Below, one piece after another: positions 21,476 to 38,710 of a stretch of 64,000 bases of DNA (positions within the stretch are counted from its first letter, which is position 1; each line of letters starts with the position of its first letter). The DNA comes from Nonomuraea rubra (GTDB taxonomy: Bacteria > Actinomycetota > Actinomycetes > Streptosporangiales > Streptosporangiaceae), in the NCBI RefSeq assembly GCF_014207985.1, contig NZ_JACHMI010000001.1, forward strand, positions 9,965,001-10,029,000, read 5' to 3'. Under the pieces are notes generated by a model, which made no database searches, had not been told where the DNA came from, and was given only the letters and a program-made list of their open reading frames with translations. The position numbers were made by a program, and so were the translations under genes.

Positions 21476-22492
21476 TCAGGTCCTGGGGGCGATCAGGAGG
21501 GTCACCGTGCGGTTGCGGCGGGGGTCGCGGAACGGGTTGTCCGACTGGTCGGCGCTGACCAGGGTGAAGGCGGTGATCGGCAGCCTGCCGCCCTCCGCCA
21601 GGTAGCGGGCCGCCACGAGGGCACGGCCCAGCGCGACCACGGAGCCGCCTCGTGTCCGCCCTCCGGGGACGGGCACCGCGTGGCCCACCACGGTGGTGTC
21701 CACCTGCATGCCCGCGATCCGGCGGCCGAGCGCGCGCAGCAGGGGCGGGCCCGCGGCGCCGATGTCCGCACTGGCCGGGAAGAGCCCCGTCTTGAAACGC
21801 ACCCGTACGTCCTGGGACCGGCGCTGCACGATCAGCCCCGGCATGGCCAGCCTCCGTGCGATCACGACCAGCTCCCGCTTGCGATCGGCTGCCTGCCTGG
21901 CCTTGCGCTCCGACTCCGCCGCCTTCCTGGCCTCCACGGCCGCGACGTGCTCGCGCAGCGCGTCGGCCTCGGCCGAGGAGCCGGGCCGTGAGGCGGCGGG
22001 GCCGGCCGGCTGCGCCGTTCCGGCGGCCACCTGTCCCTGTGCGGCCGGGTCCGGGCTCAGGACGACGATCCCTGCGGCCAGCGCGACCACGGCTACCGCC
22101 GCCGCGGCCACCCCGAGCCAGCCGGTGTGGAGCAGGGGCTTCGAGCGGCGACGGCCGAGGCGAATCTCCTCGATCGTGCGCCGCCCCGCCTCCGCTCCCT
22201 GGTCGTCGGGCGACACCTCCTGCACGGCCGCCCAGCACCGGTCCGCCTCCTCCAGCTCCCCGCGCTGGGCGTGCACCCTGGCCCGCAGGTCGAGCGCGGC
22301 CACCACGGCAGCCGCATCCGCGTCGAGCGCGCTGGAGGTGCCCGGTGTGCCGGAAGTGTCAGGCGTGGCCCGGACGGCGAGGTCGGGCAGCTCCAGCTCG
22401 TCCAGGAGGCGTACGGCCCCGTCCAGGTCGCCCGCCCGCGCGGCCGACCGCGCCCCGTTCACGACGAGCCGCACCCGCAGCGGATCGCTCAT
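21476..22492 (-). CDS. TPR / membrane / OmpA-like protein, last gene of the Hsp70-kinase operon
   Basis: Three parts are visible in 338 residues: a cytoplasmic helical repeat region of about 110 residues (ARSAARAGDLDGAVRLLDEL, RARVHAQRGELEEADRCW) resembling TPR units, a membrane helix near 123-145, and an extracytoplasmic part with an Ala/Arg-rich coiled stretch and an OmpA/MotB-like domain (VRVRFKTGLFPASADIG, LRALGRRI, and PFRDPRRNRTVTLLI). OmpA-like domains normally grip peptidoglycan, so the protein may tie the chaperone system to the wall. Its start overlaps the Hsp70 stop by four bases. A terminator follows the stop. Confidence 0.7.
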   Translation of the reverse strand: MSDPLRVRLVVNGARSAARAGDLDGAVRLLDELELPDLAVRATPDTSGTPGTSSALDADAAAVVAALDLRARVHAQRGELEEADRCWAAVQEVSPDDQGAEAGRRTIEEIRLGRRRSKPLLHTGWLGVAAAAVAVVALAAGIVVLSPDPAAQGQVAAGTAQPAGPAASRPGSSAEADALREHVAAVEARKAAESERKARQAADRKRELVVIARRLAMPGLIVQRRSQDVRVRFKTGLFPASADIGAAGPPLLRALGRRIAGMQVDTTVVGHAVPVPGGRTRGGSVVALGRALVAARYLAEGGRLPITAFTLVSADQSDNPFRDPRRNRTVTLLIAPRT

Positions 22493-24951
22493 CGCCTGAC
22501 CAGCCCGATGATCTTGTCCTGCTCGTTCTTGGGCAGCATCCGGATCAACCGCTGGTTGACCCCCTCGAGCGCGCGCTGGTCACCATCGGCGATGGCCTGC
22601 ATGCCCTCCCGGATGAGCGCGCCTGCCTGCCCCGCCGGCTCCAGCGCGTCCCGCAGCGCCTGGAACAGCTTGACAGGCCAGTCGGGGCCGCGCCGCTCCA
22701 GCTCCATCAGCAGCAGGTAGGCCCGGTCGATCTGAGCCCGCACCGCCGCCGAGTCCTGCGCCTGGATGGCCTCGCGCGAGCGCTGCCGCAGCCCGGCCAG
22801 CTCCTGCCGGTCCGCCGTGTCGCCCACCGCGTTCACCAGCCGCTCCGTCTCGGCCAGCAGCCCTTCCAGCTCCTCCACCAGGGCGGGCAGTTTCACGGCG
22901 TCCTCGACGTCGTCCAGCTCTGCCCCGAGCTCGCGCAGCCGCTCCTCGGCCGTGGCCGCCGCGCCCCCGTCCACCCTGGCGGCCTGCACCTGCTCGCGGG
23001 CGGTGGTGACCGTACCCTCGGACTCGATCTTGGCCAGGCGGCGGGAGGCGTCGGACGAGCCCTGGGCCGACGCCCGCAGGGAGTCCAGCCGCTGCTCGGT
23101 CTCGGCCAGCAGCGTCTGCAGCTTCTCCGGGTCCGGCGTGAGCACGTCGCTCAGGTTGATCTCGGCCTCGAACTGCGTCTGCACCAGCGGCACGTCCGCC
23201 ACCACCGTGACCAGGCTGGACTCGTCCACCTCGAAGGTGACCTCGACCTCGGTGCCCGCGGGCAGGTCGATGGTCACGTCGACGGGCCTGATCTCCAGCA
23301 TGCCGACCTCCCGGTTGCGGTCGCCGCGGCTCCGCTCGCCCTGCAGGACGGGGATGCGGATCGCGGCCTCGGCGTCGGAGCGGCGCAGGGCGGCTGCGGT
23401 GTGGAACACCTCGCGTACGGAGGTCGGCAGCGTAACCCCCTTGCGCAGCATCGGGGCGAACGCCCGGTCGGCGAGCTGGATCCCGAGCGAGTGCGCCAGC
23501 CGCACCCCGCCGAACTCGACCTCGCCGTGCTTGATCGACAGGGTGGAGGGCGTCAGCGGCCTGGGCGCGCCCTGGTCGTCGATCAGCTCGACGGTGAACC
23601 GCGAGGTCTGCCCCCTGTCGAGGTCCACCTCGGTGGCGAAGGAGCCGGAGGCGTTCAACGGGATCCGGCCGGTGGTGAACGGCGGCCGGCCGGCCGGGTT
23701 GCTCAGGATCACCGAGTAGCCGGTCCATTCGGTGGCCGGGCCGCTGACCCGCCCCGCGACGGTGGGCGTGGTCGTCGTGACGATGGGCTCGTAGGCCAGC
23801 TCGACCCCGAACTCCCCCTCCGCCCTCCTGACCGGCTGCGGCCGGCGCAGGGTGCCGGCGAAGATGGCGGCCCCGCGCGCGACGACGGTGGTGGGGTCGA
23901 GGCTGAGGTCCAGCTCGATGCCCAGGCCGTGGCGCGGGTCGGACAGCCGCTCCCTGAGCCCGGGCGACAGCGTGACGCCGCCGACCAGCAGCAGCCGGTC
24001 GATGTCGGCGGGGCCCAGCGAGGCCTCCTGAAGTGCGCGCCGGCACAGGTTGATCGCGCGGGCGTAGAACGGCTCGGCGGTCGAGTCGAGCTCGCCGCGG
24101 GTCAGCAGGTACTCGAAGGTCTCGGTGCCGCCGTCCTCTCCCAGGAGATCCACGGTGACGTCGGCGCGCTCGGACCGGGAGAGCTGGATCTTCGCCTCCT
24201 CGGCGGCGGCCTTCAGCTTGGCGAAGTTGAACCGCCAGCGCGGGTTGTCCCTGCGGAAGTCGCTCAGCCCCAGCTCGCGGCTGACGGCGGGCACGAGAAC
24301 GCGCTCGACCAGCGCCCAGTCGATCAGCTTGCCGCCCAGGTACGGATCGCCCGCGTGGTTGAGCACCCGCAGGTCTCCGTCGTGCTTGCTGACCACGGCC
24401 GCGTCGAAGGTGCCGCCGCCGAAGTCGAACACCATCCAGTACGCCCGATCCTCGGCGTCGTTGAACCCGTACGCGAACGCCGCCGCCGTCGGCTCCTGCA
24501 CGAGCGGGCATGCAGTGGTGAACCCGGCGAGCACGGCGGCGTCGGTGGTGGCCTTGTTCTGGTTCAGCGTGAACGCGGCCGGCACGGTGATCACGGCGGC
24601 GTCCGGCGGCGTGCCGGTGTGGTGTGCGGCGTCCGCCCGCAGCGACTTGAGCACCTCGGCCGACAGTTGCTGCGGCGACAGCTCCACCCCGGCCCTGGCG
24701 AAGCTCGTGCGCGCGTCGGCCAGCCCCATCTCCAGCTTGAACTCCGACGCGGCGTTCTCCGGGTCGGTCTCGACCCGCTCCTTGGCCCGCCGGCCGACGT
24801 GCACGAGGTCCGGCTTCGGCAGCCACACAGCGGACGGCGTGACGTCCCAGCCGTCGTTGTTCTTGATCACTGAGACGCCGTCGTGCTCGGCCACCGCGAT
24901 CGCGCTGTTCGTCGTGCCGAGGTCGATGCCGAAATCGATGGTGTCACGCAT
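22489..24951 (-). CDS. Divergent Hsp70 (DnaK-like) chaperone with an inserted beta domain
   Basis: Hsp70 proteins bind and release exposed peptide segments under ATP control. The nucleotide-binding domain (about 1-370) is complete: DFGIDLGTTNSAIAV, VITVPAAFTLNQ, LVQEPTAAAFAYGF, FDFGGGTFDAAVV, LLLVGGVTLSPGL. The substrate domain begins late, near LAHSLGIQLADRAF (canonical PLSLGIE), because about 100 residues (roughly 375-480) are inserted that look like an immunoglobulin-type beta sandwich. A long helical region fills 600-820. It is longer than DnaK (about 620) and clearly not the housekeeping copy. The gene overlaps the GrpE-like gene upstream and the OmpA-like gene downstream, so all three are probably made in step. 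Confidence 0.92.
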   Translation of the reverse strand: MRDTIDFGIDLGTTNSAIAVAEHDGVSVIKNNDGWDVTPSAVWLPKPDLVHVGRRAKERVETDPENAASEFKLEMGLADARTSFARAGVELSPQQLSAEVLKSLRADAAHHTGTPPDAAVITVPAAFTLNQNKATTDAAVLAGFTTACPLVQEPTAAAFAYGFNDAEDRAYWMVFDFGGGTFDAAVVSKHDGDLRVLNHAGDPYLGGKLIDWALVERVLVPAVSRELGLSDFRRDNPRWRFNFAKLKAAAEEAKIQLSRSERADVTVDLLGEDGGTETFEYLLTRGELDSTAEPFYARAINLCRRALQEASLGPADIDRLLLVGGVTLSPGLRERLSDPRHGLGIELDLSLDPTTVVARGAAIFAGTLRRPQPVRRAEGEFGVELAYEPIVTTTTPTVAGRVSGPATEWTGYSVILSNPAGRPPFTTGRIPLNASGSFATEVDLDRGQTSRFTVELIDDQGAPRPLTPSTLSIKHGEVEFGGVRLAHSLGIQLADRAFAPMLRKGVTLPTSVREVFHTAAALRRSDAEAAIRIPVLQGERSRGDRNREVGMLEIRPVDVTIDLPAGTEVEVTFEVDESSLVTVVADVPLVQTQFEAEINLSDVLTPDPEKLQTLLAETEQRLDSLRASAQGSSDASRRLAKIESEGTVTTAREQVQAARVDGGAAATAEERLRELGAELDDVEDAVKLPALVEELEGLLAETERLVNAVGDTADRQELAGLRQRSREAIQAQDSAAVRAQIDRAYLLLMELERRGPDWPVKLFQALRDALEPAGQAGALIREGMQAIADGDQRALEGVNQRLIRMLPKNEQDKIIGLVRR

Positions 24952-25441
24952 GCTCGTTCCTCACGTGGTCTCGGGGCGGGCAGCCGACGATCACCTGGCC
25001 CATCTGGATGTGCCGGTCCCGCAGGTAGATCGACGGTCGTACGGTCTCCAGGACCGTCTCCGCGGTCAGGGACGGGTCGTCCTGGAACAGCAGGACCTCG
25101 ATGGAGCGGCCGGAGTGGAACTCCTCGCCGTCGTGGTCCTGCACGACCAGCCCGGCCTCGGCCAGGGCGTCGCGGGTGGTGCGCAGGTAGCGGCCCGCCT
25201 GCCGGCTGGTGGCGTCCTTGCCCTGCTTGGCGAGCTTGCGCTCGGCCCGCCACAGGTTCGTGGCGGCGGTCGCGAGCGCCTTGTCGTCCGGAGCATCCGG
25301 GGCGTCCGGGATGTCCCGTGACGGGGCGAGGGCGGCGAGCAGGGCCGCGAGCTGCTCCTGGACGGGCTCGGCCCAGTCGGGCGGCGGGACGCGGAAGGCG
25401 GGATGGTGGCGGAGCTGGCGGAACCACGGGAGGAGGCTCAC
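24944..25441 (-). CDS. GrpE-like nucleotide exchange factor, putative
   Basis: The 165-residue protein starts at a GTG overlapping the kinase stop (ATGTGA) and overlaps the Hsp70 gene by eight bases. Its C-terminal half follows the GrpE plan: a helix (YLRTTRDALAEAGLVV), then HDGEEFHSGRSIEVL in place of G-x-x-FDPxxHEAV, then AETVLETVRPSIYLRDRHIQ, MGQVIVG in place of the V-x-x-GY-x-L-x-x-R-V-L-R-P-A-x-V ending. The long N-terminal coiled coil of GrpE is short or absent. Position beside an Hsp70 supports an exchange-factor role. I judge this from pattern alone; a structural comparison would settle it. Confidence 0.6.
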   Translation of the reverse strand: MSLLPWFRQLRHHPAFRVPPPDWAEPVQEQLAALLAALAPSRDIPDAPDAPDDKALATAATNLWRAERKLAKQGKDATSRQAGRYLRTTRDALAEAGLVVQDHDGEEFHSGRSIEVLLFQDDPSLTAETVLETVRPSIYLRDRHIQMGQVIVGCPPRDHVRNEHA

Positions 25442-26466
25442 ATGACCACCCCCCGGCGCCAGAGCCGCACCCTGGGCTGATGGTGTTCGCGCAGTGGCGG
25501 CCAAAGGTCGATGGCTTCCTCCATGAGCTCGGTGGCGCGCGGCAGCTCGCCGGGTACACGGTGCAGGCGCAGCGCCTCGGCGGCCAGCCGCCGGGCCCGC
25601 TCCTCGGATGGCCTGGAGCCGGACTCGCGCCGCCCGCGCAGCGCCCCGGCCAGCACCCCGGCGGTGGCGGGGCGGTTGCGCGGGTCGAGTTCGAGCGTGG
25701 CCATCACGATCTCGTCCAGGCGCGGATCGACGTCGTCGTTGTACCTGCTGGGCGGCAGCAGCGGCCGGTTGAAGCGGGAGAAGGAGTAGGAGGAGAACCG
25801 GACGCCGTCCTCGTACGGGAAGTGGTTGGTGAGCAGCAGGTACGCGATCGTGCCCACCGACCACACGTCGCTGGCGCACGAGTATCCCTGGTTGCCCAGC
25901 ACCTCGGGTGCCATGAACACCAGCGTGCCCCGCGCGCTGGCCATGAGCGTGAACGGGTCGGCCCGCTTGGCCAGGCCGAAGTCGCTGACCCGCACCCGCA
26001 TGACGCTGCCGTCGTAACCGACCAGGACGTTGGCCAGCGTGACGTCGCGGTGCACGATCGGCGGATCCTGCTCGTGGGCCACCGCCAGACCGCCCGCGAT
26101 CTGCTCCATCACGTCCACCGCGACGTCCGTCGGAACGCCGCGCGGGTAGGCCGTGGTGAGCCGCTCCAGGCTGCCGCCCGGGACGTACTCCATGGTGAAG
26201 AAGCCGCGCAGGCCCTCGGGCGTCTGCACGGTCCCGGCGTCGAACAACCGCACGATGTTGGCGTGGCCGAGCGTGGACAGCAGCCGGGCCTCACCCAGCA
26301 TGTCGTCCGTCTCCTCCAGCGACGCGACCCGCTTGAACAGCTTCATCGCCTGCAGCCCCAGGTACGCGTGCCGCACCCGGTGCACCTCCGCGAACGCGCC
26401 CTCGCCGAGCAGCCGGTCGATCACGAGCGTGTCGGTGACCTTGTCACCGCTGTTGAGCAGCGCCAT
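25438..26466 (-). CDS. Serine/threonine protein kinase
   Basis: The 342 residues hold a full kinase domain: glycine loop GEGAFAEV, ATP lysine K42 (AMKLF), HRDVTLANVLV (139-149), DFG at 162-164, and APEVL. The catalytic-loop lysine of HRDxKxxN is threonine (T143), as in some bacterial kinases with HRDVSPxN loops. There is no membrane segment; after residue 275 come about 65 residues of helical, Arg-rich tail. Gene order puts it between the PP2C phosphatase (23-base overlap) and the GrpE-like gene (4-base overlap). Likely targets are the FHA protein and the chaperone parts; this is inferred from operon structure. Confidence 0.93.
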   Translation of the reverse strand: MALLNSGDKVTDTLVIDRLLGEGAFAEVHRVRHAYLGLQAMKLFKRVASLEETDDMLGEARLLSTLGHANIVRLFDAGTVQTPEGLRGFFTMEYVPGGSLERLTTAYPRGVPTDVAVDVMEQIAGGLAVAHEQDPPIVHRDVTLANVLVGYDGSVMRVRVSDFGLAKRADPFTLMASARGTLVFMAPEVLGNQGYSCASDVWSVGTIAYLLLTNHFPYEDGVRFSSYSFSRFNRPLLPPSRYNDDVDPRLDEIVMATLELDPRNRPATAGVLAGALRGRRESGSRPSEERARRLAAEALRLHRVPGELPRATELMEEAIDLWPPLREHHQPRVRLWRRGVVM

Positions 26467-27136
26467 CGCCCCGCCCCCTCACGCCGTACTGCACCGCGAT
26501 GACCGTGATGTCGTCGGTGACCCCGCTCGCGGCGGCCGAGCCGATCAGCAGCTCGCACGCCCCCTCGATCTCGCCGGCGCCGTTCAGGACGGTGCGCAGC
26601 TCCTCCTCGCCGACGCCCCTGGTGAGCCCGTCGGTGCACAGCAGCAGCCGGTCGCCGCCGCTCAGCTCGTGCACCGACACGCCCGGCAGCACCTCCCCCG
26701 GCATGCCGACGAACCTGGTCAGCCGCCCCTCGCGCACGTGGTCCTGGGTGAGCAGGGCGAGCCCGCCCGCGCGGGCGAGGTAGATGCGGCTGTCGCCCAG
26801 GTGCACCGCCAGCGCGTGTCCCGCGCGCACCAGCAGCAGGGCCGTGGCGGCACCGGTGGTGCCAGGCCCGTTCCTGGCCGTGTCCCTGATCTGCTCGTTG
26901 AGCTGGGCCGTCGCCACGGTGACCGCGCGGTCCACGCCGGGGGCGGCGAGGGCGGCCACGCGCTCGCGCACCCTGCGGGGGAACTGCTCGACCACCGTCC
27001 GCGCGGTGACGGCGGCGTCGGCCAGGCCGCCGATGCCGTCGGCCACGACGAACGTGCCGTTGCCCGGGTCGGCCGCCAGCCGGTCCTGGTTCTCGCCGCG
27101 CAGGCCCGTCCGGGTGCCCGCCGCGTACGTGATCAT
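26444..27136 (-). CDS. PP2C family serine/threonine phosphatase
   Basis: This is a compact PP2C (PPM) phosphatase of 230 residues that removes phosphate from Ser/Thr using two metal ions. Motifs seen: GLRGENQDRL, VVADGIGGLADA (metal Asp), AVHLGDSRIYLAR, LLLCTDGLTRGV and VTDDITVIAV. No signal or membrane helix is present, so it acts in the cytoplasm and opposes the adjacent kinase. I start at the ATG at 27134-27136, which overlaps the FHA stop (ATGA). A kinase-phosphatase-FHA set is a standard phospho-signalling module; here it is wired to an Hsp70. Confidence 0.93.
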   Translation of the reverse strand: MITYAAGTRTGLRGENQDRLAADPGNGTFVVADGIGGLADAAVTARTVVEQFPRRVRERVAALAAPGVDRAVTVATAQLNEQIRDTARNGPGTTGAATALLLVRAGHALAVHLGDSRIYLARAGGLALLTQDHVREGRLTRFVGMPGEVLPGVSVHELSGGDRLLLCTDGLTRGVGEEELRTVLNGAGEIEGACELLIGSAAASGVTDDITVIAVQYGVRGRGDGAAQQR

Positions 27137-27888
27137 GTGGCGGGCCCGCTGACGTTGAGCCGGTACCCGATGCCCGTGACCGTCTCCAGGATGCTCGGGC
27201 GCGACGGGTCCACCTCGATGCAGCGGCGCACCGCGCGTACCACGCCCGCCAGGTCGGACCTGGTGTACGAGCGGTGCGGCGCCCACTCCTCCCGCGGCCC
27301 CCACAACGCCGTGATCAGCGCCTGGTGGTCGCAGGCCACGGACGCCCCGCCCGTGCTGCGCCCGGCCATGTAGCGCAGGAGCTGGTGGCCCTGCGGGCGC
27401 AGCCCCGTGATGGGCGTCTCCACGCCGTTCTCGACCCGGTAGGCGCGCGCGGCCACCCAGTCGTAGCGCAGCGCGGGGCCGGTGTGGCGGACCGGGGTCG
27501 GCGGGCCGAACGGCGCGGGCTGCGTAGTGTGCGGGTCGAGGAAGGTCAGCTCCCAGTACAGCGGCTCGCCGCCGGCGGTCATGTCGCCGAGGATCAGCAG
27601 CGTGTCGCCGTGCTGGAGGCGCTTGCGCCCCTGCAGCCGCTCGGTGACGTCACCGTGGCGCAGCAGGGTGCCGTTCACGCTGGCGTTGTCGGTCACCGAC
27701 CACATGCCGTCGGCGAAGTCGAGCGTGCAGTGCAGCCGCCCCACCCAGCGCTGCGGGTCGGGGCCCAGCTCCACGTCCGGGGCGTGCTCCGGTGAGGCCC
27801 GCCCGACCGTGATCGGCCCGCCGCCCAGCTCGATGCCGGTCATGACTCCGTCCGGTGAGCTGATGCGCAGGGTCACCGCCCGTACCAC
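27133..27888 (-). CDS. FHA domain protein with C-terminal OmpR-type winged helix
   Basis: Residues about 20-100 form an FHA phosphothreonine-binding domain (ITVGRAS, VGRLHCTL, VTDNASVNGTLL, GDTLLILG). The C-terminal 100 residues resemble an OmpR/PhoB winged helix (ITGLRPQGHQLLRYMAG, SDLAGVVRAVRRCIEVDP, ILETVTGIGYRLNV), reading like the H-x-x-R-x-x-R-R-K-L-E and T-V-R-G-x-G-Y-R-L motifs of that family. A protein with both could link kinase output to transcription, or the winged helix may have turned to protein binding. It follows the J-like gene by 16 bases and overlaps the phosphatase gene. Confidence 0.85.
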   Translation of the reverse strand: MVRAVTLRISSPDGVMTGIELGGGPITVGRASPEHAPDVELGPDPQRWVGRLHCTLDFADGMWSVTDNASVNGTLLRHGDVTERLQGRKRLQHGDTLLILGDMTAGGEPLYWELTFLDPHTTQPAPFGPPTPVRHTGPALRYDWVAARAYRVENGVETPITGLRPQGHQLLRYMAGRSTGGASVACDHQALITALWGPREEWAPHRSYTRSDLAGVVRAVRRCIEVDPSRPSILETVTGIGYRLNVSGPAT

Positions 27889-27904
27889 TTCCCGTTCCTC
27901 CCGC

Positions 27905-30073
27905 TCAACTCAGCCGGCCCGTGAGCTCCTGGCCGTCGGCACGGCTGACCAGGCACACGGCGTAGATCTGCCCGTTCTTCTTCTCCCACCGGTCCTTGCG
28001 GGGCCAGATGGTGTCGATCCGGTAGAGGGCGACGGGCGCGATGCCGGACGTCGCCTCGGCGCACTCGTCCTCGGCCTTGAAGAACACCCTCGCGTCGCCC
28101 GGCCACCGGTCCTCCGGGTCGTACAGCTTCACGTAGGCCCCGTTTTCCGCCCAGTGGGGCTCCTCGCAGCGCACGATGTCCACGCTCTGCGGCGAAGCCC
28201 CCCACGTCCGCCTGGACCGCACGCAACTGCCCACCGGCGGGTTGTCCGCGATGCGCTCCCCGAACAGATCCATCCACACCACCACCCCGTGCGGTAGGGG
28301 AGGCGGATCCTCCACGTGGCTGTCCGCGTAGGGCTCGTCGCCGATGCGGCTCACCACGCAGGGCGCGTAGTTCTCGTACCGGCCCCCGCCCTTGTTCCAG
28401 CGCTTCTCGCCGGGCAGCAGGTAGCCGATCTTGTACTGGTTCGGCGGGAGCCGTTCCTGGCGCAGTTGCAGCCTCCTGCACTCCAGCTCGGCCGTGGCGC
28501 GGACCTGGTCGCCGCCCGGGTACGGCGAGACCGCCTCGCCCAGCGGCACGTAGCCCAGCACCTCGCCCCAGTGCGGCTCGTCGCAGGGCACGGTCGGGAT
28601 CCCGGTCTCGCCCGACTCCCAGCCCGCCTGGCTCGACACGCAGGAGCCTGCGGGGACATTGTCCGCCACCGCGTCCGCGAACACCGTGCTCCGCCCGCTC
28701 TCGCTCGCCGCCGATGAAGACCAGCCGGAGAACGTGCCGGAGCACTGGCCCAGCAGGAGACCGGCCCCGGCGAGGACGGCCACCCAGAAGGCCACCCTGA
28801 GCCCGCGCCCGCGACGCGGCGCCGGCACGTACGGGACGCTCGAGGTGTACCGGGGGCCCGGTCCGGGCGAGACGCGGGTGAGGCCCAGGTCGAGGCGCAG
28901 CCGGGCGACCCGCTCGATGCCCGGCACGTCGCCGAGCTGCTCCTCGATGTAGTCCAGGTAGGCGCGGGCCACCTCGGGCCTACCCGTCCTCACCAGGGCG
29001 GTCGCCTCATCCTTGATCGTCTGGAAGGTCTCGGTGACCTGGCTCAGCACGTTGCGGTTCTGCTCGATGGTCTCCACCGTGCCCGGGTCGGTGGTCAGGT
29101 CGCGGGCGGTGTCGAGCCACCTGCGGCCTCGCTGGCCCGCCGCGGGGCCCTCGCTGTCGAGCAGCGCCATGGCGCAGTTGTTGAGGAGGATGGCGACGTC
29201 CTCGCGCAGGGCGCGGGTGCGGCGGTGCCGGGCGTGGGGCACCAGCGCGTTCAGCCGGTTCAGGCCGGGCAGCACCTTGCCGTACACCCGCCCGGCCGCG
29301 CGTTCCGGCTCGCCGTCGTCGAGCAACCCGCCCGCGGCGTTCAGCGTCGTGCGCAGCGTCTCGTACATCGGCGCGGCGAGCTCCTCGAGCCGGTCGTCGA
29401 CGACCAGCTCGGGGGCCGGCCAGCGGCGGGCCAGGTCGGCCCGGCGGCCCTGCTGGTCGCCGGGCCGGCCCGCCAGCTCGATCAGCGGCCTGACCAGCGC
29501 AGAAGGCAGCTCCCTGCGGAGCACGTCCACGGCTGACTCGTCGAGCTGCCGGTCGTCCAGCGCCGCCAGCCGGTGCCTGACGTGCTCCCAGAACGCGGCC
29601 CGGCGCAGGATCGCCTTCCACTGCGCGGCCGCCTCGGTCCAGAGCTTCTCCAGCTCCAGACGGCCGGAGGACGGCCCACCGACCTCCAGGTCGAGCGCGG
29701 CGCTGTGGGCGCGTACGGCCGCGTCGTGGTCCTTGTGCAGGCTCCGTACGCAGGGGCACGTGGCGTCGGGGGTGTCCCAGAGCCAGAACAGCTCGTCGAC
29801 CAGCCGCCTGCGGGGGTCGTCGAGCAGGCGGTCGAAGGCCGCGCGCACCTCGTCGGCCTCCACGGGCAGGTCGTGACCGAGATCGACGTCGGCTCCCACC
29901 TGGAGCGCCGTGTTGACCTTCTGCCTGCGCTCGCGGATGGCGCGCCGGTCCGCGTACGTCGACAGCCCCGTGATCCGGAACGCGTTGCGCCGGTAGAGCT
30001 CGGCCCCGGCCACCTCCTGCAAGGCCCGCCCCGTCGCGTCACCCGGCCCGCTCGCCTCGCCTGCGCCGAACAT
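27905..30073 (-). CDS. J-domain-like membrane protein with extracytoplasmic septum-formation-type domains
   Basis: First gene of the Hsp70-kinase operon, 722 residues; the ATG follows GGGGAGG. Residues about 25-105 look like a degenerate J domain (ELYRRNAFRITGLST, IRERRQKV, then AFDRLLDDPRRRLVDELFWLW) but have no HPD tripeptide. A helical middle of about 300 residues follows, then a membrane helix near 426-447. Outside the membrane are two related domains with paired cysteines (VPAGSCVSS, VPCDEPHWGEV, ELECRRL; PVGSCVRS, VRCEEPHWAEN, DECAEA) like the septum-formation/DUF4190-associated family. It could recruit the Hsp70 to the membrane and sense wall or division state. The domain calls are mine from pattern and need profile support. 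Confidence 0.7.
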   Translation of the reverse strand: MFGAGEASGPGDATGRALQEVAGAELYRRNAFRITGLSTYADRRAIRERRQKVNTALQVGADVDLGHDLPVEADEVRAAFDRLLDDPRRRLVDELFWLWDTPDATCPCVRSLHKDHDAAVRAHSAALDLEVGGPSSGRLELEKLWTEAAAQWKAILRRAAFWEHVRHRLAALDDRQLDESAVDVLRRELPSALVRPLIELAGRPGDQQGRRADLARRWPAPELVVDDRLEELAAPMYETLRTTLNAAGGLLDDGEPERAAGRVYGKVLPGLNRLNALVPHARHRRTRALREDVAILLNNCAMALLDSEGPAAGQRGRRWLDTARDLTTDPGTVETIEQNRNVLSQVTETFQTIKDEATALVRTGRPEVARAYLDYIEEQLGDVPGIERVARLRLDLGLTRVSPGPGPRYTSSVPYVPAPRRGRGLRVAFWVAVLAGAGLLLGQCSGTFSGWSSSAASESGRSTVFADAVADNVPAGSCVSSQAGWESGETGIPTVPCDEPHWGEVLGYVPLGEAVSPYPGGDQVRATAELECRRLQLRQERLPPNQYKIGYLLPGEKRWNKGGGRYENYAPCVVSRIGDEPYADSHVEDPPPLPHGVVVWMDLFGERIADNPPVGSCVRSRRTWGASPQSVDIVRCEEPHWAENGAYVKLYDPEDRWPGDARVFFKAEDECAEATSGIAPVALYRIDTIWPRKDRWEKKNGQIYAVCLVSRADGQELTGRLS

Positions 30074-30188
30074 TTCCTCCCCATCACGACCGAGGTATCC
30101 GCCTGGTCCGAGCCTGGCCGAGGCCCGTTCCGATCTCCATGGCAGGTGGATGGAATCCAGATGGGCGTACGCGCGCCCCTCCGGACGC

Positions 30189-30974
30189 TCAGCGCACCAT
30201 CCTCATGACGAGTGGCCGGTGGTCGGACAGCGTGGTGGGGAGCACGGACCCGCTGGTCGTCGTGATGCCGCGCGTGTAGACGTAGTCGATGCGGGCGTCA
30301 CCGTGGGTGGGCTTGTTCGCGTACCGGGCACCGGTGTCGGCCCAGCCCGCGCTGACGAACCGCCTCGACAGCGCGTCCGTCGGCAGCGCGTTGAAGTCGC
30401 CGGTGAGGATCAGCCCCGTCCGGGTGCCGAAGTAGTCGAGCACCTTGGCGGCCTGGGCCTCGCGGCGGCTGACCGAGGTCGCCGACAGTCCGGGCGACAG
30501 GTGCGTGGTGAACACCCGGACCTGGGCGCCGCCGCCGAGGTCGAGCCTGACCCCGGCCATGGAGCGGTTGACGGGGCAGGTGGCGAAGTCGGTGAGTTTG
30601 ATCGTCACCCGCTCGACGATCTTGTACGAGGACAGGATCGCGTTGCCCGCCTTGCCTGGCTGCGGATCGTCGCAGGGCCCCACGTCATCACCCGCTCCGA
30701 AGTGGGCGTTGTCCGTGATGTCCCAGCCGAGCTCGTCGGCGAGCAGGCGCACCTGATCGGCGTCCGGCCTGCGGTGGATCTCCTGCAACGTGACGACGTT
30801 GGCGCCGCTGTCGCGGATGACCTGGGCCATGGCCTCGATGTCGGCGTCCTCGCCGTGGATGTTCCAGCTGAGCACCACGACGTCGGCGGCTCGGGCTTGC
30901 GCCGGTGGCGGCGAGGCGACGGCGGTGAGGAGGACTAACGCTGCGATCGCTTGACTACGCCTGGTCACTCGCAT
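30189..30974 (-). CDS. Secreted endonuclease/exonuclease/phosphatase family protein
   Basis: The 261-residue protein begins with a signal peptide (MRVTRRSQAIAALVLLTAVAS, cleavage near AQARA). The rest has the EEP fold of DNase I, sphingomyelinase and phosphatases: VLSWNIHG, VVTLQEIHR (metal Glu), THLSPG, LTGDFNALP (catalytic Asp-Asn) and a final LSDHRPLVM (catalytic Asp-His). It should be an exported Mg-dependent phosphodiesterase, either a nuclease or a lipid hydrolase. TAAGAT eight bases before the ATG, with no ribosome site, suggests a leaderless start. A second exported nuclease gene lies immediately upstream. Confidence 0.88.
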   Translation of the reverse strand: MRVTRRSQAIAALVLLTAVASPPPAQARAADVVVLSWNIHGEDADIEAMAQVIRDSGANVVTLQEIHRRPDADQVRLLADELGWDITDNAHFGAGDDVGPCDDPQPGKAGNAILSSYKIVERVTIKLTDFATCPVNRSMAGVRLDLGGGAQVRVFTTHLSPGLSATSVSRREAQAAKVLDYFGTRTGLILTGDFNALPTDALSRRFVSAGWADTGARYANKPTHGDARIDYVYTRGITTTSGSVLPTTLSDHRPLVMRMVR

Positions 30975-31741: not shown

Positions 31742-34700
31742 CTATATCGCGTCAAGCAGCCACTCGGCCAGGTATCGGGTGAAGGATGAGCGCACGTAGA
31801 TGCGGTAGAGGCCGGGGGCGCGCCGCTCCAGGATGACCGCCGTCTTGCCGAGCAGGGTCTGGGCGTGACCGGGGAAGACGTCCGGGTGCAGGTCGATTGG
31901 GCAGCCGGTGATCAGGACGTCCTCGGCCGCCGGCCCCGACAGCTCCAGGATCGTCCGCTGGCCCGACACGTCCACCCAGCCCGGCGGCACCGTCCCGACA
32001 TTTCCGGACACCAGCCACCAGGACGGCCCCAGCCGCAACCCCACGCCCGGATCCGCGCCCCGCACCTCCCACATGGGCTCGAACGGCACCTCGCGCAGCC
32101 GCACCCCGGCACCGCCCGCCGCCTCGAACCGCGCCGCGAACGCGGCGGCCGGGCTCTCGGCGCGCACCTCCCGGTCCCACGGAACCCGCGCCCCGGCCAG
32201 CGGCTCGCCGTCACGGCGGGCGTTGCCCGGGTCGTAGAAGACCGGCTCCACGACGGTCACCGGGTGCGCCGCCTCCCCCGACACGGCGGTGAGCCGGGCG
32301 CCGGGCGCCACCTCCCTGGCCAGGGCCAGGCAGAACGTGCGGCCGAGCGCGGCACTGCGGTAGCTGGACGTCACGTGACCGAGCATCGGAGTGCCTCCGG
32401 CGGTGGCGACGAGCTGGGCACCCTCCTCCACCAGGGCCGCCGGGTCGTCGGGCAGCAGGCCGACCAGGCGCTTGCGGTCGCTCCTGGCGGTGTCGGGCCT
32501 GGCGTGCGAGCGCTTGCCCACGTAGTCGGGCTTGCGCCGGGAGACGATCCACGACATGCCCAGGTCCTGCGGCGTGACGGTCCCGTCGGTCTCCTGCCCG
32601 ACGATCGCGAACCCCTTCTCGGCCCGCAGCACGTGCATGGTCTCGGTCCCGTACGGCACCGCCCCGAGTTCCAGCACCGCCTCCCACAGCGCCCGCCCGT
32701 AGGCCCACGGCACGTTCACCTCGTACGCCAGCTCCCCCGAGAAGCTGATCCTGAACACCCTGCCAGGCACGCCCAGCACGTCAGTGGCCGCGTACCGCAT
32801 GAACGCCAGGTCGAGCGCCCCCGGCGCGACGGCCGCGATCACCTGCCTGGCGCGAGGCCCGGCCACCACCACGGTCGCCCAGTGGTCGGTGACCGACGTG
32901 AACGACACGTCCAGGCCGGGCCACTCCGTCTGGTGCCACTCCTCCAGCCAGTCGAGCACCATGGCGGCGTTGCCCGTGGTGGTGGTCATGAGGAAGTGGT
33001 CCTCGGCGAGCCTGGCCGTGGTGCCGTCGTCGAGCACCATCCCGTCGGCGCCGCACATCAGGCCGTACCGGCAGGCGCCGACGGCGAGCGTGGAGTACAG
33101 GTTCGTGTAGATCCGGTCGAGGAACGCGGCCGCGTCGGCGCCCCGGATGTCGATCTTGCCGAGGGTGGAGGCGTCCATGGCGGCCACGCCGGTGCGGGCC
33201 GCGCGGCACTCGCGCAGCACCGCGTCCTCCATCGACTCGCCCGCCTGGGGGAAGTACCAGGGACGTTTCCACTGGCCGACGTCCTCGAACACCGCGCCCC
33301 TCGCCACGTGGGCGTCGTGCATGGCGGTGGTCCTGACGGGGTCGGACAGCTCGCCGCGGTCCCGTCCGGCGAGGGTGGCGAACGACACCGGCACGTACGG
33401 AGGCCGGAACGTGGTCGTGCCCACCTGGCCGGGTGCGGCGCCGAGGAGGGCGGACATGAGGCCGACGACCACCGCGCCCGAGGTCTTGCCCTGGTCGGCG
33501 CCGGTGCCCGCGGTGGTGTAGCGCTTGACGTGCTCGACCGAGCGCATCCCGGTTCCCGTGGCCCTGGCCAGGTCGGCCACGGTCACGTCCCGGTGCAGGT
33601 CCGCGAACGCGAGGTCGCCCTCGACCACCCACAGGGCGGCCGGCGGGCGCGCGGGCCGCTCGTCGCACTCGGGCACCCGCAGACCGTGCGCGTCGTGCCC
33701 GGCGGCCTCCGCCCCCGCCGCGTAGCCGTCGGCGATGGCCTCGCGGGTGCCGTACAGGCCCCTGCACGCGCCGGCCGAGCGCTCCGCCTGGGCGGAGGTG
33801 CCGGGGACGAACGCCTGGAGGTGCTCGTCGAAGCGGACCCGTCCCTGCGACTGGCTGAACAGGTGCACGGCCGGGTTCCAGCCGCCCGCGACGGCCAGCA
33901 GGTCGGCCTCGACGTGCCGCGGGCCCACCTGGACGCCGTTCAGCACGCCGTCCGCGTCGCCCGTCGTTCCGGTCACGACGTCGCCCGCCACGCGGGGGTC
34001 CACGACGGCGGCGATCTCCACCCCGGCCGCGGCCAGGTCGCGGGCCGCCTCGTACCCGGAGTCCGCGCACGCGAACACCACGGCCCGCCGCCACGGCGCG
34101 ACCCCGTACCGGTTGGCGTAGGCGCGGGCGGCGGAGGCGAGCATCACGCCGGGACGGTCGTTGCCGGGGAAGGCGATCGAGCGCTCGTGCGCCCCCGTCG
34201 CCAGCACCACCTCGCGCGCCCTGATGTGCCACAGCCGCTCGCCCCGCGCCCGTCGCTCCACGGCCACCACGTAGTTGTGGTCGTAGTAGCCGACGGCGGT
34301 CGTCCGGGTGAGCACGCGTCCCGGCAGGTCGAGCCCGGCCACCCAGTCCATCGCGGGCGCGCCGTCGAGGAGCAGGCGGGAGCTGAGCAGGTCGCCGCCC
34401 AGCCGGGCCTGCTCGTCCACGAGGATCACCCGCGCGCCCGCCCTCCCCGCCGCCGTCGCGGCGGCCAGCCCGGCGGGCCCGCCGCCGACCACGAGCACGT
34501 CGCAGTGCAGGTACCCCTTGTCGCAGCGGCGATCGTCCACGGCGTCGAGGTCCACCCGGCCCTTGCCGCTCAGGCTCCACGCCTCCAGCCCGTCGTACAG
34601 CTCGACCACGGTGGCCGCCAGCATCGGGTCCGCGCCCACCCTGACCAGCGCGTTCGGCTCCTCGGGGCCGGCGGTGAAGACGCCGCGCGGCCGGCCGAGC

Positions 34701-34804
34701 GCGACGCTGCGGCCCACCACCCTGACCCCGTTGCGCAGCAGCGCGGCGGCCAGCGTGTCACCCGGCTCGCCCCGCAGAGCGCGCCCGTCGAACGTGAACC
34801 TCAT
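31742..34804 (-). CDS. soxA: Sarcosine oxidase alpha subunit fused to a gamma-like domain
   Basis: Heterotetrameric sarcosine oxidase converts sarcosine to glycine and passes the methyl group to tetrahydrofolate. The 1020 residues hold an N-terminal 2Fe-2S-fold segment (GDTLAAALLRNGVRVVG, RPRGVFTAGPEEPNALV), an FAD/NAD-binding oxidoreductase part (LVVGGGPAGLAAATAAG, VVLATGAHERSIAFPGNDRPGV) and a GcvT-type folate domain (CRYGLMCGADGMVLDDG, RISFSGELAYEVNVP). The last 150 residues (WVDVSGQRTILELSGP, DLHPDVF, SSFTRYLAEWLLDA) match the separate SoxG subunit. No soxG gene follows, so the fusion probably supplies it. The start overlaps the soxD stop. Confidence 0.93.
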   Translation of the reverse strand: MRFTFDGRALRGEPGDTLAAALLRNGVRVVGRSVALGRPRGVFTAGPEEPNALVRVGADPMLAATVVELYDGLEAWSLSGKGRVDLDAVDDRRCDKGYLHCDVLVVGGGPAGLAAATAAGRAGARVILVDEQARLGGDLLSSRLLLDGAPAMDWVAGLDLPGRVLTRTTAVGYYDHNYVVAVERRARGERLWHIRAREVVLATGAHERSIAFPGNDRPGVMLASAARAYANRYGVAPWRRAVVFACADSGYEAARDLAAAGVEIAAVVDPRVAGDVVTGTTGDADGVLNGVQVGPRHVEADLLAVAGGWNPAVHLFSQSQGRVRFDEHLQAFVPGTSAQAERSAGACRGLYGTREAIADGYAAGAEAAGHDAHGLRVPECDERPARPPAALWVVEGDLAFADLHRDVTVADLARATGTGMRSVEHVKRYTTAGTGADQGKTSGAVVVGLMSALLGAAPGQVGTTTFRPPYVPVSFATLAGRDRGELSDPVRTTAMHDAHVARGAVFEDVGQWKRPWYFPQAGESMEDAVLRECRAARTGVAAMDASTLGKIDIRGADAAAFLDRIYTNLYSTLAVGACRYGLMCGADGMVLDDGTTARLAEDHFLMTTTTGNAAMVLDWLEEWHQTEWPGLDVSFTSVTDHWATVVVAGPRARQVIAAVAPGALDLAFMRYAATDVLGVPGRVFRISFSGELAYEVNVPWAYGRALWEAVLELGAVPYGTETMHVLRAEKGFAIVGQETDGTVTPQDLGMSWIVSRRKPDYVGKRSHARPDTARSDRKRLVGLLPDDPAALVEEGAQLVATAGGTPMLGHVTSSYRSAALGRTFCLALAREVAPGARLTAVSGEAAHPVTVVEPVFYDPGNARRDGEPLAGARVPWDREVRAESPAAAFAARFEAAGGAGVRLREVPFEPMWEVRGADPGVGLRLGPSWWLVSGNVGTVPPGWVDVSGQRTILELSGPAAEDVLITGCPIDLHPDVFPGHAQTLLGKTAVILERRAPGLYRIYVRSSFTRYLAEWLLDAI

Positions 34805-35042
34805 CGAGAGTCCCTCATCTCGTGGGTGACCGTGTGCCGCTCGACGGTGAACCAGGTCCGGCAGCCGTGCACGTGGAACCAGCGCTCGTGGAACCAGCCC
34901 TTGGGGTTGTCGCGCATGAAGACGTAGGCGGCCCACTCCTCGTCGGAGGTCTCGCCGGTGGGGTACGAGATCCCGGCCTGGCCGCCGTAGTGGAACTCGT
35001 TCGCGTCGCGGGGGCCGCAGTGCGGGCAGTCGAGGAGGATCA

Positions 35043-35043
<1 letters not shown>
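34801..35043 (-). CDS. soxD: Sarcosine oxidase delta subunit
   Basis: An 80-residue subunit opening with MILLDCPHCGPRDANEFHYG, the zinc-binding N-terminus of SoxD, and closing with CRTWFTVERHT. The WAAYVFMRDNPKG segment and the full length agree with the family. SoxD is a structural subunit that binds zinc. Its ATG overlaps the soxB stop by one base, and its stop overlaps the soxA start by four, so soxB-soxD-soxA is translated as a coupled unit in the standard order. Confidence 0.93.

Positions 35044-38710
<3,667 letters not shown>

Follow-up and report, generated by a model that had tools for sequence, protein, structure and literature searches.

A portable gene cassette of Nonomuraea rubra combines a divergent Hsp70 lacking the canonical J-contact residues with J-like, short GrpE-like and membrane TPR proteins

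The stretch of DNA analysed here (the window; 64,000 nucleotides) belongs to the 12.9 Mb genome of Nonomuraea rubra, a member of the Streptosporangiales (assembly GCF_014207985.1, contig NZ_JACHMI010000001.1, positions 9,965,001 to 10,029,000), and carries seven packed minus-strand genes around a divergent Hsp70 at 21476-30073. Read from 30073 down to 21476, the genes encode a J-like membrane protein (G), an FHA and winged-helix-like protein (F), a PP2C phosphatase (E), a Ser/Thr kinase (D), a GrpE-like protein (C), the Hsp70 (B) and a TPR/OmpA-like membrane protein (A). The conserved core of this cassette consists of a J-like/TPR membrane protein, a short GrpE-like protein, an Hsp70 and a membrane TPR protein that usually has an OmpA-like domain. 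We consider it moderately probable that the core forms an accessory Hsp70 machine that is tethered to the cytoplasmic membrane, is reset by C and makes a J-Hsp70 contact that does not use the HPD motif. Its types of component are familiar ones, and a thematic relative has been published; the cassette itself, in which both proteins have lost the J-Hsp70 trigger, was not recognised in searches of an open-licence library. All coordinates refer to the window and, unless stated otherwise, to its minus strand.

Loss of the J-protein trigger in a conserved Hsp70 core

According to the part of PMC7289447 drawn on here, the trigger of J action consists of the HPD aspartate, arginine 167 and the linker aspartate 393, and the DnaK substitution R167H suppresses DnaJ D35N. 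We followed these determinants through 65 classified loci (48 from genome contigs, 16 more of the order after two duplicates had been dropped from 18, and the window), 58 of which are not cut near a contig end. The equivalent of arginine 167 is present in none of the 65 cassette Hsp70s; the residue found there is P in 60 sequences, L in three, S in one and T in one. Likewise, none of the 64 cassette Hsp70s that reach far enough has an LLLD-type linker in residues 361-520 (L047 is cut by the contig end). All 65 retain the lysine 70 equivalent and the GGGTFD block. In a control set of 30 canonical DnaK loci of relatives the arginine was matched in 29 and the strict linker pattern in 25. On the other side of the contact, HPD in the loop between helices II and III was found in none of 66 aligned J-like sequences, GAD being the commonest triplet there (29 rows). 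Since HPD, arginine 167 and the linker are lost together in both proteins, the pattern is that expected of a rewired interface and not of the decay of one gene.

Judged by its motifs, B (820 residues, 22489..24951) appears to have an intact ATPase and to have kept its substrate domain while losing the canonical J-contact residues. Relative to the DnaK encoded by the canonical dnaK elsewhere in the genome, it has about 98 extra residues (380-477; 23521..23814) between the nucleotide- and substrate-binding domains, at the position of the VLLLDVTP linker. By eye this insert may be a beta-sandwich. The same linker-position insert occurs in the other cassette Hsp70s aligned, including four from Verrucomicrobia (row L044 of this alignment is the second Hsp70 of its locus and not the cassette one). 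Further Hsp70s stand beside the cassette in two Streptomyces (L044:7012-9255; L043/L044, minus strand near the left end), and as the second Hsp70 of L044 has extra linker-position residues, a wider family of insert-bearing Hsp70s may exist.

The Hsp70 is accompanied by the other core genes almost throughout. Among the 58 untruncated loci a script detected the Hsp70 in 58, the GrpE-like gene in 57, the TPR membrane protein in 56 and the J-like gene in 54; the four loci without a scripted J are those of Verrucomicrobia, in which the open reading frame directly before GrpE matches the J-like profile. The exceptions are L009, without GrpE and TPR, and L027, without TPR. The order J-GrpE-Hsp70-TPR prevails in most loci, and GrpE-Hsp70-TPR-J is found in the other Streptosporangiales group and in two Streptomyces. 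The genes had been read in an earlier, sequence-only prediction (the original prediction) as one system, and the survey of gene order does not contradict this for the four-gene core, which stays together in nearly all untruncated loci. We regard the cassette as more than a chance arrangement because this core recurs in Actinomycetota and in four loci of Verrucomicrobiota. The "whole" Hsp70, J and GrpE machine of the original prediction holds in so far as an Hsp70 set with a genuine GrpE relative is present; it is not a canonical one, as the missing HPD, arginine and linker attest.

The partner proteins of the Hsp70

The modelled structure of C (165 residues, 24944..25441) supports its assignment as a short-stalk GrpE, a putative nucleotide exchange factor with a beta domain on a helical stalk. 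In the AlphaFold2 model (mean predicted local distance difference test score, pLDDT, of 90) a beta domain comes after two main helices, each about 20 residues long, and a Foldseek search of the PDB with this model gave GrpE at all of ranks 1-12 (best expectation value, E, 1.5e-5). We call C a short-stalk GrpE because its profile finds proteins that look like canonical GrpE, because the model fits and because of these twelve leading ranks. The Pfam GrpE model matches the family weakly (E 0.21 for the window protein; 12 of 31 members, best 0.0011). In a survey of 396 genomes, which may undercount as only 9 candidates per genome were scored, eight matched the GrpE-like profile at E <= 0.001 and only the genome of the window did so strongly; of the other seven matches, five look by eye like canonical GrpE and two like a PhoU-type protein.

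The first part of G (722 residues, 27905..30073) may be called J-like, without HPD, on a weak but specific profile match. When a profile of 33 sequences (A3) was compared with the PDB, J proteins made up 20 of the 23 matches with E up to 10, the best at 0.0091. A model of residues 1-425 (mean pLDDT 92) places four helices at residues 31-35, 43-58, 73-85 and 87-95, in the order expected of a J domain and with high pLDDT; this region (residues 31-95) corresponds to 29789..29983. Beyond it the model continues as a long helical, TPR-like stretch. A transmembrane segment was placed by eye near the hydrophobicity peak (approximately residues 425-445, 28739..28801), and the extracytoplasmic tail contains a Pfam Septum_form match (residues 475-563, 28385..28651). 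A hydropathy peak of at least 1.6 is present in G of 61 of the 65 loci and in Actinomycetota usually closes the helical part of the protein. The outer tail ranges from almost nothing to about 290 residues across loci, and many G proteins are short (380-470 residues) with no room for it. A tandem pair of J-like genes lies inside the operon at L027:5646-9463 and at L040:5949-9454.

A (338 residues, 21476..22492) combines a cytosolic TPR part, a transmembrane segment and an OmpA-like domain (residues 216-338, 21479..21847). A profile of 15 sequences of this family (A4) found YiaD in the PDB at E 2.6e-10, 59 of its 60 matches being named OmpA, Pal, MotB/MotY or TssL-type, and Pfam OmpA matches 11 of the 15 members; the outer domain of the family is thus supported as OmpA-like at the level of sequence profiles. 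The motif GHTD holds the peptidoglycan-binding aspartate of the OmpA family. It is present in ten rows of the profile, those of the other Streptosporangiales group, and the window protein reads GHAV at this place. All 60 loci that have A show a hydropathy peak of at least 1.6 in it, which in Actinomycetota usually follows the TPR part; in Verrucomicrobia A stops soon after the membrane segment. A membrane-anchored chaperone set with TPR/OmpA-like parts reaching outside the membrane, as originally proposed, is supported.

Between the window and two congeners (L008 and L112) the J-like part is 82% and 82% identical, the Hsp70 84% and 81% and the helical part of G 50% and 56%. In these comparisons identity is 50-71% for the faster-diverging segments, namely the TPR and stalk of A together with the helical part of G, against 81-84% for the J-like part and Hsp70. 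These faster-diverging segments may be candidate client-facing surfaces.

Presence and absence of the cassette

The cassette is found in 5 of 54 Nonomuraea genomes. Among 297 genomes of the order 19 match the GrpE-like profile at E <= 2e-38; this survey gave 32 rows, and the 13 weak ones (E 7.5e-6 to 9.6e-4) were assumed to be canonical GrpE without being checked singly. The exonuclease-family gene at one flank is closely kept in 16 of the 54 Nonomuraea genomes, 12 of which are without the cassette. In all four of the cassette-free Nonomuraea sites that were fetched, the two flanking genes directly adjoin each other, always at the same place. The junction in the closest of these congeners joins window position 21484 to 30191, so that the unit missing from this empty site is 21485..30190 (8706 bases, either strand); a second junction was resolved to a few bases, and at the remaining two sites an intergenic run of about 40 bases does not align. 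As four Nonomuraea lack the 8.7 kb at this exact site, the cassette comes and goes as a unit. N. fuscirosea has it at the same site but lacks the FHA and PP2C genes and the outer tail of G.

The Pfam scan found no recombinase among the seven products. A plasmid or phage origin was rejected: none of 72,556 plasmid records was matched by the GrpE-like protein, and the 37 phage records that match the Hsp70 all cover less than 80% of its length, the ten matches listed covering 44-45%, which corresponds to its general nucleotide-binding domain.

An optional signalling module

The three remaining genes form an optional module: the kinase D (342 residues, 25438..26466) is soluble, with HRD, DFG, lysine and glycine loop intact, the PP2C phosphatase E (230 residues, 26444..27136) has metal-binding motifs that are intact in sequence, and F (251 residues, 27133..27888) combines an FHA domain with a winged-helix-like part. 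The FHA residues for phosphopeptide binding are also present, apart from the serine, which is replaced by Gly in 16 of 20 aligned members, among them the window protein. Against the PDB the FHA family profile found at E <= 0.01 only two FHA chains, of RNF8. Like F, EmbR-type regulators join an FHA domain to an OmpR-like winged helix and stand beside a Ser/Thr kinase. Their domain order is the reverse of the FHA-then-helix order seen in F, and they have a middle domain in addition.

In the 58 untruncated loci the kinase was detected in 26 (one of them, L030, a fragment), FHA in 17 and PP2C in 5, leaving 32, 41 and 53 loci, respectively, in which they were undetected; these counts rest on home-built profiles and same-strand adjacency, by which a divergent PP2C or FHA could be missed. 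The kinase module is placed either after or before J. An Hsp70 tree of 64 rows was built by a quick method and rooted at its midpoint, with long branches flagged; in it the 31 kinase rows all lie inside one part of 45 rows, with six changes of state, at least five of them forced. With this root, one clade gained the signalling module, and losses followed. The original prediction had wired the chaperone to a phosphorylation switch. The switch survives as a kinase and a phosphatase with intact motifs; constitutive wiring does not, as kinase, FHA and PP2C are optional, and "wired to phosphorylation" describes one clade and not the whole system. The congener N. fuscirosea, which has neither FHA nor PP2C in its cassette at this site, also speaks against phosphorylation as a fixed feature.

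A BLAST cluster led by a kinase is represented at 15 of 64 loci, by 17 genes lying no more than 7 kb away, where simple arithmetic from the 88 kinase match rows of the 12.9 Mb genome gives about six in about 0.9 Mb. Because many loci are close relatives and the members were not checked singly, this enrichment is only suggestive. FHA accounts for 11 match rows in the whole genome. In the flanks of L011, L029, L030, L032, L034 and L036 a second family occurs within 7 kb, which by eye (four sequences) appears to combine FHA with a helix-turn-helix.

Gene layout and flanking genes

The packing of the seven genes was correctly foreseen. A gap of 16 bases separates the J-like gene from the FHA gene, and the five other junctions overlap: FHA/PP2C by 4 bases, PP2C/kinase by 23, kinase/GrpE-like by 4, GrpE-like/Hsp70 by 8 and Hsp70/TPR-OmpA by 4. 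Two starts were revised from the mechanical calls, PP2C to 27136 (ATG) and GrpE-like to 25441 (GTG). Searching each protein with Pfam profiles confirmed part of the assignments (HSP70 1e-81, Pkinase 3.9e-41, PP2C_2 2.9e-12 and FHA 2.7e-8, and Septum_form 2.2e-11 in the C-terminal part of G); Trans_reg_C in F (2.4e-4) and TPR_2 in A (0.0014) remained below threshold. The J, GrpE and OmpA parts of the window proteins had no Pfam match above threshold, and profiles of relatives were needed for them.

The flanks are unrelated to the cassette. The neighbours on one side are a two-component system and a PepSY protein; those on the other are a protein of the endonuclease/exonuclease/phosphatase family and sarcosine oxidase genes. 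The sarcosine oxidase-type genes, with a dimethylglycine-oxidase-like gene, occupy 31742-38692, and the gene of this set closest to the cassette stays beside the site in congeners with and without it. An open frame of 1005 codons on the plus strand (21856-24873), antisense to the Hsp70 gene, is typical of high-GC DNA and was not taken as a gene. The promoter scan found none, and the single terminator-like site equals what is found in shuffled sequences.

Comparison with known systems

The closest published relative is the second theme of the GAP1-N2 conflict systems, which in the portion of Kaur et al. 2020 (PMC7159879) used here likewise has an Hsp70, a GrpE and a J-or-TPR operon near the membrane. 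The same portion describes neighbourhoods of Hsp70, GrpE and DnaJ-FNIII, wall-facing parts and a link to multicellular habit in GAP1-N2-related systems. The cassette Hsp70 differs from that theme in keeping its substrate domain and in carrying the insert. Membership of the GAP1-N2 systems was rejected: PF20013 has no match in the whole genome, and neither the GrpE-like nor the J-like profile of the cassette has a match in nine GAP1-N2 regions, a small sample. An Hsp70 is present in two of these regions, in one case beside a sub-threshold GrpE match (E 0.00048); a further two regions have a weak kinase match. The two GAP1-linked Hsp70s (L074 and L077) are without the arginine 167 equivalent and have N and D instead; on these two sequences only, systems of this kind may often have lost the J trigger.

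The TerY-P triad of vWA, PP2C and Ser/Thr kinase, as outlined in the part of PMC11090510 considered, also has kinase and PP2C adjacent. The cassette kinase is without zinc ribbon or OB fold in the Pfam scan, and PP2C was detected in only 5 of 58 loci. No vWA match was found in the seven products or the ten flanking open reading frames scanned, in agreement with the original prediction that the von Willebrand protein is missing, and membership of the triad was rejected on this ground.

With the canonical DnaK-DnaJ-GrpE system the cassette shares three component types, the ATPase motifs and the GrpE fold. It differs in lacking HPD, arginine 167 and the LLLD linker and in having the 98-residue insert, membrane anchors and a short GrpE stalk. 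By analogy alone, the mitochondrial PAM motor (mtHsp70, Mge1, Pam18 and Pam16) resembles it in a tethered Hsp70, a GrpE-type factor and an HPD-less J-like subunit, the last being Pam16 of the import motor in the section of PMC9695410 consulted. The cassette of the window encodes no HPD partner like Pam18.

Proposed mechanism and alternative explanations

In the accessory machine that we propose, the J-like protein would not act as a DnaJ-style trigger of ATP hydrolysis and would instead serve as a docking or regulatory subunit that keeps the Hsp70 at the membrane, in the way that Pam16 does. TPR surfaces would bring clients, the GrpE-like protein would reset the cycle and the OmpA-like domain would tie the complex to the wall or sense it. 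In the clade of the window, kinase and PP2C would set phosphothreonine on a component and the FHA/winged-helix protein would read it, a readout that most simply would probably adjust transcription of the operon. More tentatively, and with less confidence than in the machine itself, the cassette Hsp70s may be a separate class in which the J trigger is wholly replaced. HPD, arginine and the allosteric linker would have been lost together, the 98-residue domain at the linker position and the J-like membrane partner would couple client binding to ATP hydrolysis, and a portable core would have spread across Actinomycetota and Verrucomicrobiota and gained the kinase-FHA-phosphatase reader in one clade.

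Several results weigh against this assignment of parts. A longer J profile (A2) found designed helical proteins best in the PDB (E 0.0014) and J proteins at 0.067 or worse, Pfam DnaJ matches one of 33 family members, at E 0.14, and Foldseek with the 425-residue model of G gave no match at E <= 0.001. Foldseek and VIA returned TPR and other helical repeats for this model, with no J fold among the matches, and because only helical repeats were obtained the J fold is unconfirmed by structure search. For C itself, the TM-scores (template modelling scores) of the GrpE matches are only 0.37-0.51, and GrpE was not listed in the PDB sequence search with the GrpE-like profile. The insert of B has no clear PDB relative (best E 0.14). 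The OmpA-like domain of the window protein is unmatched by Pfam OmpA and has lost GHTD. Direct contact of kinase, FHA protein and chaperone is read from gene order alone. The loss of HPD and arginine could also mean that the J-like protein and the Hsp70 do not interact, or that the ordinary J proteins of the cell serve B.

The main rival to the accessory machine, which we think unlikely, is a conflict (anti-invader) system, in which an inducible Hsp70 assembly at the membrane would detect an invader and set off a response, in the manner of the GAP1-N2 theme of Hsp70, GrpE and DnaJ. The patchy presence in Nonomuraea and in the order, the cassette-free sites, the variable partner genes and the arginine-free GAP1-linked Hsp70s would fit such a role, as would the related neighbourhoods in the part of Kaur et al. 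2020 (PMC7159879) cited above. The absence of GAP1-N2 from the genome, and of the GrpE-like and J-like families from the nine GAP1-N2 regions, speaks against it, and no effector-like family was seen by eye among the recurrent neighbours (clusters in at least four loci). The flanks were scanned for up to two nearest genes per side (90-700 residues, rough gene caller) in 38 of 64 loci. The 146 proteins obtained have mostly metabolic, transport and regulatory families as their commonest, with ABC, SDR, APH, TetR and similar leading among the 25 of 137 Pfam families listed and kinases in 3 members; among the 25 of 40 PADLOC families listed, generic kinase models account for nearly everything except mad3, which matches 5 members. 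The flanks do not resemble defence islands, and a defence island was rejected as support for a conflict role, which is not a disproof.

It is less probable still that the Hsp70 is an envelope chaperone that folds or remodels a wall-synthesis or division protein, with the OmpA-like domain and Septum_form reporting the state of the wall. This would suit the OmpA-like domain with GHTD in several relatives and the Septum_form tail of G, and kinases like D are often linked to wall synthesis. The outer parts are, however, the least constant ones, with many short G proteins and a Verrucomicrobial A that ends near its membrane segment, and the patchy presence speaks against an essential wall client. 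The earlier link to division is not sustained, since it rests only on the Pfam name "Septum formation" of a tail that many relatives lack. The least probable explanation, in our estimate, is that B is merely one more chaperone of the DnaK type whose own J protein has degenerated, that the ordinary DnaJ of the cell serves it in trans and that the operon supplies dosage under stress. The kept catalytic residues and the canonical dnaK elsewhere in the genome are compatible with it; against it stand the lost DnaJ contact (arginine in 65 of 65 Hsp70s, linker in all 64 testable) and a J-like part that stays conserved.

If the J-Hsp70 contact is rewired, the machine may run by a rule unlike that of ordinary Hsp70s. 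A conserved Hsp70 that has intact ATPase motifs, is without HPD contact, arginine and linker and stands beside a conserved J-like partner without HPD and a GrpE relative would allow the indispensable parts of Hsp70 allostery to be tested, and the cassette may represent a compact, portable, membrane-tethered chaperone that can be tested for a function in envelope control or defence.

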